Shown piece by piece: positions 25,654 through 29,973 of a DNA stretch of 64,000 nt. The position numbers and the translations under genes were made by a program. Below the pieces are notes generated by a model. The model worked only from the letters and a program-made list of their open reading frames with translations, was not told the DNA's origin and ran no database searches. The first letter of the stretch is position 1, and every line of letters starts with the position of its first letter. The stretch comes from an uncultured bacterium (GTDB taxonomy: Bacteria > Cyanobacteriota > Vampirovibrionia > Gastranaerophilales > Gastranaerophilaceae). The stretch covers positions 47,730 through 111,729 of the forward strand of contig CATLLJ010000004.1 in the NCBI GenBank assembly GCA_950022495.1, written 5' to 3'.

Positions 25654-27075
25654 ATGAAATTAGAAAATATAATTTTGAACATTCTTTTCAAACTTGCTCA
25701 AACTAAAAATATCGTTATAATAGAAGGTATGACAGATATTGATAAGAGCGATTTAGAAGAGTTAAAACAACGGGTTAAAAAAAAGCTTGATGAAACAAGT
25801 TTGTATTCGTACAAAGGAACCGTATCAAAGCTTTTGGGTTTAACGGTTGAAGTTAAACTGCCGGGGTTAAAAATCGGTGACCTGTGCTATATTGAAACCG
25901 CAACGGGTGAGCAAAAACCTGCTGAAGTTGCTGCATTTAAAGGTGAAGTCGCTCAATTATCATTACTTTTGGATGGAAACGGAATTGGTCAGGGAAGTTT
26001 GGTAACAACTTCAAGACAACCGATTACAATTCCAATCGGGGATTTTTTATTAGGGCGATTGATTGATCCTTTAGGTAATCCTATAGACGGAAAGCCTCTT
26101 GATACAACCAATGCAACATGGAAACCTATTGAAGGACCTCCTCCGGGACCGTTTGAAAGACCTATTATTACAGAACAATTCTCAACAGGGGTTCGAGCAA
26201 TTGACGGTTGTATGACAATGGGCTGCGGACAGCGTTTGGGATTATTTGCAGGTTCAGGGGTTGGTAAAAGTACACTGCTTGGTATGATTGCAAGAAATTC
26301 AGATGCAGACGTTAACGTTGTTGCACTAATCGGAGAACGCGGCCGTGAAGTTAAAGAGTTTGTTGAAGATGCTTTAGGCGAAGAAGGTATGGTTAAATCT
26401 GTTCTTGTATGTTCAACCGGTGACCAGCCGCCTTTAATTCGTCAAAAAGCACTTTTAACTGCAACTGCGGTGTGTGAATATTTCAGAGATCAGGGTAAAA
26501 AAGTTTTCTTGATGACAGACACAGTAACACGTTGTGCAATGGCCGGGCGTGAAGTAGGGTTGTCCCTCGGTGAACCTCCGACAATGAAAGGTTATCCGCC
26601 ATCAATTTTCTCATGGCTTCAAAAAGTTCTTGAACGTGCAGGAAACAGCCCAAGGGGTTCTATTACCGCATTGTATACTGTACTTATGGAAGGTGATGAT
26701 ATTTCGGATCCGATTGTAGATATTGTGCGTGGTATTGTAGACGGTCACATTTTCTTATCCAGAAAAGTTGCCGAATCAAACCATTACCCTGCGATTGATG
26801 TATTGGGAAGTATTTCCCGTTTGATGAGTGCGATTGCTGCTCCTGAACATAAACAGGCGGCAGGTAAACTCCGTACGATTTTGTCTTTATATCGAGAAAA
26901 TAAAGACCTTATTGATGTAGGTATGTATCAGCCGGGTTCAAACCCTCGACTTGACGTTGCGATTGAAATGGTTCCAAAAGTAAATGCATTCTTGCAGCAG
27001 AGAACATCTGACAGCGTTACTATGGAAGGTACTATCAGCCAGCTTGTTGAAATGATGCGTGGTGTTGAGATTTAA
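25654..27075 (+). CDS. FliI/SctN (YscN)-family type III secretion/flagellar ATPase-like protein
   Basis: FAGSGVGKSTLLGMIARN, ALIGERGREVKEFVED, DTVTRCAMAGREVGLSLGEPPTMKGYPPSIFSWLQKVLERAG, RGSITALYTVLMEGDD. Internal ATG at 25729 is an alternative start. Confidence 0.9.
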   Translation: MKLENIILNILFKLAQTKNIVIIEGMTDIDKSDLEELKQRVKKKLDETSLYSYKGTVSKLLGLTVEVKLPGLKIGDLCYIETATGEQKPAEVAAFKGEVAQLSLLLDGNGIGQGSLVTTSRQPITIPIGDFLLGRLIDPLGNPIDGKPLDTTNATWKPIEGPPPGPFERPIITEQFSTGVRAIDGCMTMGCGQRLGLFAGSGVGKSTLLGMIARNSDADVNVVALIGERGREVKEFVEDALGEEGMVKSVLVCSTGDQPPLIRQKALLTATAVCEYFRDQGKKVFLMTDTVTRCAMAGREVGLSLGEPPTMKGYPPSIFSWLQKVLERAGNSPRGSITALYTVLMEGDDISDPIVDIVRGIVDGHIFLSRKVAESNHYPAIDVLGSISRLMSAIAAPEHKQAAGKLRTILSLYRENKDLIDVGMYQPGSNPRLDVAIEMVPKVNAFLQQRTSDSVTMEGTISQLVEMMRGVEI

Positions 27076-27149
27076 TCCGTTTTTGTAACAATAATCAATA
27101 AATGCTTTGCATGAGTTTGACATGTTTTTTTGCTTAATTTACTATCATG

Positions 27150-27298
27150 AACAAGAGGAAATGAAGTGAATATCTTCAACTGTAGCCGCAGCCGTAATAG
27201 TCGGAACACTCAAAAACCACCTTATTCACGTGCAGTTTGAAAAGGGAAATAGAGTTTTTTGAAGTGTCCTCTAGGCTTGGAAGTCAAGAGGATTTTTA
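27150..27298 (+). promoter_or_regulatory. Probable cobalamin riboswitch with RBS-sequestering expression platform
   Basis: GAGGAAATGAAGTGAATATCTTCAACTGTAGCCGCAGCCGTAATAGTCGG fits GGAAn..GGUGaaAaUCC..CUGcCCCCGCAACuGUAA; ACCACctt..aaGGGAA fits CCACU...GGGAA; closing stem ACACTCAAAAAC/GTTTTTTGAAGTGT; hairpin CCTCTAGGCTT-GGA-AAGTCAAGAGG-like (27269-27291) contains the AGAGG RBS just before ATG 27299. Confidence 0.78.
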
Positions 27299-28009
27299 AT
27301 GTCATTAACAGCAGCACATACACATACTACAAAAGTTGGAACATGTCCGCACGGATTACCATTAGGAGCATGTCCGATTTGTAACGGTATGGCTGGCGGA
27401 AATTCCACAACAAAACGTGATATTCCGCGTAATGTTGGTGAAATGTCTTATAATCAGTGTGCTGCTATAGGTGCAATGCTTCGTGCTCAAAAAAATGCCA
27501 GACATCAAGCTCAAATTGCCCAGCAAAATCATTTGCAGGCTATTGCGGATTTCCAGAAAAGTATTGCAAATACACACCAAAGACTTATGACTCTTGCGGC
27601 TTCTATTTCTGAAACTATGCCTGCTGTTATTGCAAAACCGGTAAATTTTGTTTTAACAAATGTAGTTGGAAAAGTTTTAAATTTTGTACAAAATATTCCA
27701 AATATAATTGCAAATATTTCGCAGGCTATTACACAAAAATTTGCGGATATAACAGATAAATTAACTGCAATTTACGGCGAATTTAAAGCAGCTGTTCAAA
27801 AAAAAGTTTCAGAGTTTTTATCTAATGTGAAAAAGAAATTAAAATCTTTATTTTTTGTTTTCGGAACGCAGGAAACGGAGGATGAAGAGAAAAAAATTGA
27901 TGAAGCAAAAAGGACATTTGAGCTAAAAACTTTTATTCACACACTTGCTCAAAAACTTAAAAACCAGAACCAAAAGGATATAGAAAAGGATGAACGTAGT
28001 ACCGTTTAA
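27299..28009 (+). CDS. Hypothetical protein with N-terminal His/Cys motif and hydrophobic/coiled region
   Basis: MSLTAAHTHTTKVGTCPHGLPLGACPICNGMAGG...; starts 7 nt after AGAGG of the riboswitch hairpin. Confidence 0.8.
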   Translation: MSLTAAHTHTTKVGTCPHGLPLGACPICNGMAGGNSTTKRDIPRNVGEMSYNQCAAIGAMLRAQKNARHQAQIAQQNHLQAIADFQKSIANTHQRLMTLAASISETMPAVIAKPVNFVLTNVVGKVLNFVQNIPNIIANISQAITQKFADITDKLTAIYGEFKAAVQKKVSEFLSNVKKKLKSLFFVFGTQETEDEEKKIDEAKRTFELKTFIHTLAQKLKNQNQKDIEKDERSTV

Positions 28010-29492
28010 TGACGGCGAACTGGTAAGACAGCAGAGAAATCTTACTAATTCTCAAAGAAAAAATATCCAAACCACCAGAGAAGGTGTTTTGGTTAATAAT
28101 CTGATTAAGGATAAAGAAGTCAATTTATCTGATACAAAAGATTCATACCTGATTTCTGATAGTGTTGATTTGCCATTAGAACTCTATAAAGATAACAAAA
28201 TTATTGATAAAAAACTTGTGCCGTTAAGTGCAATTGCATTAGGTGTAATGTCAACAGTAGCAATTATTACGGGTTTTGCAAGACAAAGTGCGAAAATAGC
28301 TAAAAATCTTCCGAGTGAAAAATGGCTTCCGCCGGTTACACGTAACGTTCAGTTGAGTAAAGAAATGCACCAACTTGTTTATCAGTATATCCAAAATCCG
28401 AACAAAAAAACTTTACTGGCAGGGCTCGGGGTTTTAACTTTGTCAACCATGGCGTTTATGGGCAAGACGTTTTTTGACGGTTATAAAGATATCTGGGTAA
28501 AGCGTAAAGAAGCAAATATTCAAAAAAATCTTCAGGAGAATTTGATTTCTGTTGAAACGCAGTCATTTTCTGGAAAAATGCAGATTATAAGAAGTATGTT
28601 ATCAAAGCATGCTGCGGATTTTGAAAAATATATCACTCCTGACGGAGAGAAAATTCTGCCGAATTTTGGCAAAAACAAGTATTCAATGCTTACATTTACA
28701 TCAGAATCTAAAAATTCCAATGAAAAAAAATCAAATTTAGGTAATATTTTACTTGGTACATTCACGTTTGCAGGAATTATCGGGTTAGGATTTTTATCTA
28801 TGAGAAACCTTTCAAAAGGTAAGGCTTATTTACAGGAAGCTGCTGAAAATTCTAAAAATTTGATTAAGGAATACATTAAAAAGTCAGGTGAAGCATCAAA
28901 TGAAGTTGATAAGGATTTGTTAGAGCATATGTTCATGGCTATTGATGATGGTTCTGACACTATACGTGCATTTATAAAAGAACAAATTAATTCTGTTAAA
29001 TGGTCGAATTCTAAAGAAAAAGCCGATTATTTAAATAAAATTCTTACCAAGTTAAAAACATCTACAACCAAAGCAAATCCGAATTATGCAGGTGACGGAA
29101 CTCCGCGTCCTGCATTTAACTCGTTTGTAGAGGATTATAGAGCATTTTTCTATAACTGGCTTTTAGATACAAAAAATCCGCAGTTCCAGCAATTATTCTT
29201 TGGTATCACAGGATTAACTGCGGCAAGTTATGGCGGTAAGCTTGCAGGGGATGCGATAAAAGATGTTCAGGTTAAAAAGATTAATGCAGAAACTGAACTT
29301 GAGCTTCAAAAAAGGCTTGTATCTACTGAATTGAGGAATTTCAAGTCAAAAAAAGATGCTGCGATTACGCCGCTTGTGGAAGAATTTTACAAGCAGGTAG
29401 ACAGCGGCAAGCGGTCAAAAGAAGAATTAAAAACAATGGCAGAGAATGTGTTGTTTGAGATTAAGAACGGCCCGCCGTTTGTGTATTCATAA
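27990..29492 (+). CDS. Hypothetical membrane protein, translationally coupled to the previous ORF
   Basis: 20-bp overlap with upstream CDS; hydrophobic segments LVPLSAIALGVMSTVAIITGFA, LLAGLGVLTLSTMAFMG, LLGTFTFAGIIGLGFLSM. Confidence 0.8.
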   Translation: MNVVPFNDGELVRQQRNLTNSQRKNIQTTREGVLVNNLIKDKEVNLSDTKDSYLISDSVDLPLELYKDNKIIDKKLVPLSAIALGVMSTVAIITGFARQSAKIAKNLPSEKWLPPVTRNVQLSKEMHQLVYQYIQNPNKKTLLAGLGVLTLSTMAFMGKTFFDGYKDIWVKRKEANIQKNLQENLISVETQSFSGKMQIIRSMLSKHAADFEKYITPDGEKILPNFGKNKYSMLTFTSESKNSNEKKSNLGNILLGTFTFAGIIGLGFLSMRNLSKGKAYLQEAAENSKNLIKEYIKKSGEASNEVDKDLLEHMFMAIDDGSDTIRAFIKEQINSVKWSNSKEKADYLNKILTKLKTSTTKANPNYAGDGTPRPAFNSFVEDYRAFFYNWLLDTKNPQFQQLFFGITGLTAASYGGKLAGDAIKDVQVKKINAETELELQKRLVSTELRNFKSKKDAAITPLVEEFYKQVDSGKRSKEELKTMAENVLFEIKNGPPFVYS

Positions 29493-29532
29493 AATTCAAA
29501 TTTATATGGAGGAATCTATGATTAGGTAATAT

Positions 29533-29945
29533 TTACATAAACTATGTTAGGGGTAAATATCAAAATGATATTTTCATAAGGGGTTTCAGGGGAAAATCCC
29601 CTGATGACTCGAACCATTCAATCAAGCGTGTTTTTCTTTTTCGGTTCTACTTTTTCTTGCTTGGGTGTTCGCATTAAACGGCGTTGCAGTCAGGGCTCAA
29701 CGCCCTGCCTTTCAGCCTCTGCTCACAATCCGCTTTGCGTCGCAATCAAAAAGAAAAAGTGAACAAAGAGAATATTCTTTTTAAAATAAATACAGTTCCT
29801 TCATTTCTTTCTCTTTTATTGCGAGTAAAAGAGAAAGAAACGCAAGCAAAGAAAGAGAAAAACGCGACCAAATGATACGAGTCATCAGAAACTACGTTTC
29901 CGAACCTTCCTTTGATTTGCATTGCAAATAACATAGTTTATGTAA
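29533..29945. mobile_element. MITE-like 413-bp element with perfect 17-bp terminal inverted repeats
   Basis: TTACATAAACTATGTTA at 29533-29549 and its exact reverse complement TAACATAGTTTATGTAA at 29929-29945; imperfect inverted similarity extends further outward (tatgatt.gg.aa). No transposase inside. Confidence 0.75.
29804..29840. repeat. Perfect 15-bp inverted repeat (hairpin) element, copy 2
   Basis: TTTCTTTCTCTTTTA-TTGCGAG-TAAAAGAGAAAGAAA, reverse complement of 8276-8312 with conserved flanks. Confidence 0.85.
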
Positions 29946-29973
29946 GATTTCCCAAATCATAATAGGAGAAAAT

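Follow-up and report, generated by a model that had tools for sequence, protein, structure and literature searches.

The window examined here, a 64,000-nt stretch of contig CATLLJ010000004.1 (GCA_950022495.1; coordinates are positions in this window, and its genome is referred to as the window genome, G000), holds a locus that an initial annotation had described as an operon of two overlapping ORFs. Both ORFs, i.e., P1 and P2 (Table 1), were confirmed, including the 20-base overlap that results from the P2 start lying inside P1. This overlap is conserved (4–29 bases in 79/79 relatives measured), and P1 and P2 stood side by side in all 80 loci from relatives' genome contigs. The two-gene description proved incomplete, however, since a third gene (P3) had been missed behind a repeat insertion that parts it from P2 in the window genome. 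P3 was located downstream of P2 in each of the 69 relative loci with at least 1.5 kb of downstream sequence, and the P2–P3 gap in relatives is mostly 5–30 bases. In the 1.91 Mb read from the window genome, P1, P2, and P3 each occur once, and the conserved unit is the three genes P1-P2-P3.

The insertion itself is a composite repeat, parts of which are present in many copies across the genome. Directly upstream of the operon lies a gene for a FliI/YscN-family ATPase (25654–27075), which is not a conserved neighbour. The FliI/ABC neighbours were rejected as functional partners because conservation does not extend to the upstream genes fliI and abc: among 68 loci with upstream sequence, fliI was found in one, where it is situated downstream of the operon and shows 31% identity.

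Table 1. Features of the operon and its leader in the window
Feature	Position	Strand	Description
Promoter-like pair TTGACA-17-TACTAT	27117–27145	+	Expected transcript start ~27152, at the aptamer edge; read from sequence
AdoCbl-II aptamer	27144–27216	+	RF01689 match; P4 27163–27177, J6/3 strand 27203–27211
L13 loop (ACGUGCA)	27228–27234	+	Expected kissing partner of L5 (~27183–27188), based on covarying loop variants
UCCUCU strand	27267–27272	+	Two predicted alternative partners: the ribosome-binding site (OFF) and the 5′ box 27154–27159 (ON)
P1 ribosome-binding site (AGAGGA)	27287–27292	+	Followed by U5; may double as a terminator-like hairpin; based on sequence and partition-function test
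P1	27299–28009	+	236 aa; CPHGxPxGxCPxC knuckle at the N-terminus, followed by amphipathic helices; no known family
P2	27990–29492	+	500 aa; membrane protein, ~4 TM, internal duplication; no known family
Repeat insertion	29493–29973	 	Between P2 and P3; multi-copy parts
P3	29974–30465	+	163 aa; third operon gene, soluble by hydropathy; no known family

The riboswitch leader and its predicted switching

Given the position of the promoter-like pair, the aptamer would open the transcript; a comparable TTGACA/TA..AT arrangement was read from sequence upstream of most relatives' leaders. The leader, previously called riboswitch-like, is a true AdoCbl-II aptamer, scoring 41 bits with the RF01689 covariance model (Rfam gathering threshold 36.5 bits). 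Its core was found in 110/110 assessable loci of the close set (the 111 loci with P1 among L001–L112, with L106 left out as it is cut by a contig end; the sets used overlap in species). The strict aptamer pattern matched 100 of these leaders, and the other ten were recognised by eye as the same core in its CTGGCGCAGCC variant.

The distant set (15 loci, L113–L127; P1 tblastn identity ~24–37%) has a cobalamin riboswitch leader in 13–14 cases. An Rfam cobalamin riboswitch exceeded the gathering threshold in ten of them, L113, L114, and L119 gave sub-gathering scores at the correct position and strand, the riboswitch of L117 was recognised by eye, and the leader of L122 looks degenerate. Apart from this last leader, we found no homologue lacking the riboswitch or belonging to a known unrelated family. 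Seven distant loci score best with RF00174; since several of them match RF01689 as well, this split probably reflects divergence within the clan and is not proof of replacement. Moreover, in two genomes of family f15, which we infer from its "same class" label to be another order of the class, relatives of P2 (HMM E ~1e-12) that lack an accompanying P1 match are located behind a cobalamin riboswitch. The initial suggestion that the operon would respond to B12 is thus strongly supported by leaders throughout the close set, at nearly all distant loci, and in front of these P2 relatives.

Across 71 leaders, the L5 and L13 variants covary with some exceptions (UGCC with GCA, AGCC mostly with GCU, and UGGC with C.CA), and the leaders have diverged while their pairing was kept. 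The MFE z-score of the window leader (–0.26) was not significant and was therefore given no weight.

The UCCUCU strand of the leader can pair with either the AGAGGA ribosome-binding site of P1 or the AGAGGA 5′ box, and both pairings are present among the predicted folds of the window leader. All 71 leaders have a sequestor helix of 6 bp or more. When the ligand-bound state was mimicked in a partition-function model by blocking the J6/3 strand and the 5′ box, the pairing between UCCUCU and the ribosome-binding site of the window leader increased from 0.62 to 1.00, and mean sequestor pairing over the 71 leaders rose from 0.77 to 0.97 (up in 40 and down in one), compared with 11 leaders up and six down for a control block of equal size. 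Antisequestor pairing upstream of UCCUCU was in modest excess over shuffles (6.86 vs. 5.02 bp) and is suggestive. In this model, AdoCbl would switch the operon off: its binding would free UCCUCU, and the freed strand would sequester the ribosome-binding site.

Other riboswitches were seen outside the operon. The second RF01689 match of the window genome (L002; G000:C2:52573–52651) scores 34.5 bits, i.e., below gathering, and is its only other one; it precedes nrdD, which encodes the B12-independent class III RNR. Relatives carry riboswitches 5′ of two different nrdD types. In genome G038, a CobT-like ORF, an uncharacterised ORF of 473 aa, and an NrdJ-type gene lie in the neighbourhood of cobalamin-clan riboswitches (L260, L261). 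In two other families, a B12 riboswitch lies 5′ of long repetitive hydrophobic ORFs of 506 and 581 aa (L280 in G060 and L281 in G063), which the P2 HMM does not match; the next ORF in L281 is Gly-rich with weak P1-like features.

The encoded proteins

The N-terminus of P1 reads as initially quoted, and residues C16, P17, H18, G19, C25, P26, and C28 of its knuckle are invariant in 66 aligned homologues. The knuckle is a possible metal/corrinoid site, its conservation showing only that four ligand-type residues matter. Beyond it, P1 is amphipathic helix of an apolipoprotein-like kind. Two P1-like paralogues (L128, L129) have a "DI.DK..A.FGE" region and no CPHG knuckle.

In line with the "several hydrophobic segments" noted earlier for P2, hydropathy revealed three clear ones (residues 79–97, 140–158, and 253–271), and a fourth (~398–417) was placed by an internal duplication of residues 124–209 and 381–469 (hhalign probability 96.8, E 2.7e-10). 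P2 identity within the close set is ~53–81%, with no signs of diversification. P3 is the most conserved of the three proteins. No signal peptide was apparent by eye in the operon proteins.

The window P1–P3 gave no match passing curated cut-offs in Pfam or NCBIfam, Pfam scans of all aligned members returned weak, scattered matches only, and there was no convincing PDB match for any of the three. The B12-binding domain PF02310 was absent among the Pfam matches listed for P1, P2, and P3. Matches to Baculo_PEP_C, YtvI, apolipoprotein, and similar Pfam families were rejected as coiled or amphipathic background lying below curated cut-offs where these are given. AlphaFold modelling, which had been advised for both proteins of the initial annotation, delivered weak AF2 models, i.e., one of P1 that was too poor for Foldseek (pTM 0.31) and a low-confidence one of P2 (pTM 0.49), for which Foldseek found no match with E < 0.4; its weak and non-significant list includes the ClyA and PaxB pores (E at least 0.58).

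B12 use and distribution of the operon

The window genome encodes an AdoCbl-dependent NrdJ (E 8e-222) and a CobA-type corrinoid adenosyltransferase. CobS was not found in it, BtuB, BtuC, and BtuF seeds had no BLAST match in its 1.91 Mb, and neither a TonB-dependent receptor (PF00593) nor a FecCD permease (PF01032) was matched in 36 same-genus genomes, its own included. Based on these presences and absences, it apparently belongs to a B12 user that lacks CobS and a standard (Btu) importer, the importer searches having covered the Btu-type system. A single PF02310 match in this genome, below cut-off and outside the operon, was not counted as a B12 enzyme.

P1 was found in 51 of 59 relatives. Setting strong BtuC at E < 1e-40, 49 genomes have P1 only, two have both (G041 and G046, of one genus), four of the eight without P1 have BtuC only (G042, G044, G051, and G058), and four have neither. 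The distributions of the operon and BtuC are thus largely complementary (Fisher p 0.002 by genome and 0.028 by genus, with phylogeny ignored). In G041, G042, G044, G046, and G051, a B12 riboswitch precedes neighbouring genes for BtuC and a TonB-dependent receptor, and riboswitch-btuB-btuCDF operons exist in relatives. G230 also carries BtuB and BtuC alongside the operon, bringing the genomes with both BtuC and P1 to three.

In three genomes related at family level (G212, G234, and G240; 98–99% complete), P1, P2, P3, NrdJ, and RF01689 are all absent. Exceptions to such joint occurrence were G227, which kept NrdJ without P1, P2, P3, or RF01689 (an assembly gap or a real loss); G222, in which the leader, P1, and P3 are present with no intact P2 between the two genes; and G003, G006, G214, and G230, which kept P1 and the leader with no NrdJ match, and in which P2 adjoins P1 (L021 in G003, L018 in G006). 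These exceptions indicate a link of the operon to B12 biology that is not limited to NrdJ. At the G222 locus (L279; G222:C11), P1 with its leader is followed by two P3-like ORFs of 190 and 203 aa.

Possible functions and comparison with known systems

We consider the chances about even that P1-P2-P3 is an AdoCbl-repressed, membrane-associated system acquiring or handling B12 in place of Btu. B12-auxotrophic, outer-membrane-bearing gut bacteria would make the three proteins when AdoCbl is low, and these would acquire corrinoids, or capture them and hand them on, a role filled by BtuB-BtuCDF in related lineages. P2 would be the membrane translocation or scaffold subunit, with P1 (carrying the possible metal knuckle and amphipathic helices, and translationally coupled) and soluble P3 as its probable partners, and the substrate would be a corrinoid. 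Counting against uptake, P1–P3 resemble no known transporter, an all-helical set leaves the passage of B12 through the outer membrane unexplained, and the operon occurs without NrdJ in four genomes, NrdJ without the operon in one, and both systems together in three. A bolder version, in which P1-P2-P3 is an undescribed corrinoid uptake class unrelated to Btu, ECF, and BtuM that brings B12 into a diderm without TonB receptor or FecCD, is correspondingly more tentative and in our view rather doubtful.

The initial annotation had offered both cobalamin handling and a B12-alternative function, and the former fits the genomic context. The latter, in which the operon would replace a B12-requiring process and be switched on at low B12 as for nrdD in the window genome, can draw on the fact that this B12-independent isozyme follows the only other RF01689 match there, and on the operon being kept without NrdJ in G003, G006, and G214. 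Such a substitute should, however, persist after loss of the B12 enzyme, usually without a switch, whereas the operon, RF01689, and NrdJ are jointly absent from G212, G234, and G240, and P1 kept without NrdJ still has its leader. Moreover, P1–P3 match no enzyme family, and we deem a substitute unlikely. The switch, the Btu complementarity, and the three joint absences are better explained by corrinoid acquisition or handling, whose functional steps are putative. Somewhat more plausible than the substitute, though still improbable, is corrinoid or metal handling after uptake, with import by another system (ECF-CbrT, BtuM, or unspecific) and a complex that stores, delivers, or remodels a corrinoid or escorts a metal via the CHCC residues. 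The invariance of these residues, the lack of an apparent signal peptide, the soluble partner P3, the presence of CobA, and the retention of P1 in G041, G046, and G230 despite BtuC all agree with it; the BtuC complementarity and predicted AdoCbl repression, however, fit acquisition at least equally, and a duplicated multi-TM P2 would be unexpected for a corrinoid chaperone.

Two further readings seem very improbable to us, and about equally so. The apolipoprotein-like helices of P1 and the pores on the P2 Foldseek list could suggest contact-dependent or pore-forming scavenging, in which amphipathic and membrane-inserting proteins release B12 from other cells or membranes when it is scarce, but those structural matches are non-significant, P2 shows no diversification in the close set, and no export signal was noticed. 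The riboswitch might also have been kept by common descent in front of a process only indirectly linked to B12 (envelope, stress), given that the function of the operon is inferred only and that some genomes keep it without NrdJ; against this, the leaders diverged with their pairing kept, and the riboswitch link persists in distant homologues and in what is probably another order.

No paper on this operon in Melainabacteria/Gastranaerophilales was found in the literature. B12 is contested in the gut, where importers help decide which bacteria compete, and Gastranaerophilales-type gut bacteria appear to use AdoCbl (via NrdJ) without CobS or a standard importer. A riboswitch-marked, conserved operon of three unnamed families would offer a direct handle on how they obtain B12, and the P2 family likely reaches another order of the class.

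Compared with known systems, the leader resembles the AdoCbl-II riboswitch RF01689 in its score above gathering, its P4, J6/3, and L5–L13 pairing, and its ribosome-binding-site sequestor, but differs in controlling genes of unknown families and in having a UCCUCU strand with two alternative partners, the 5′ box and the ribosome-binding site. Control of nrdD by a B12 riboswitch involves the same switch clan in the same genome, although nrdD encodes a known B12-independent enzyme, whereas P1–P3 match no enzyme family. With BtuB-BtuCDF the operon shares an AdoCbl riboswitch leader (in related genomes), B12-using relatives, and a distribution largely complementary to its own; in contrast, it contains no TonB receptor, FecCD permease, ABC ATPase, or binding protein, and no homology to Btu was detected for P1–P3, which are helical or soluble. 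In Bacteroides, the riboswitch-bearing cobamide loci encode BtuH, an uncharacterised protein that binds B12 and is a transport partner (PMC8941943). BtuH acts within a conserved cobamide transport locus, whereas no BtuB was found in the window genome; it nevertheless sets a precedent for B12 binding by uncharacterised proteins encoded in such riboswitch-bearing loci.
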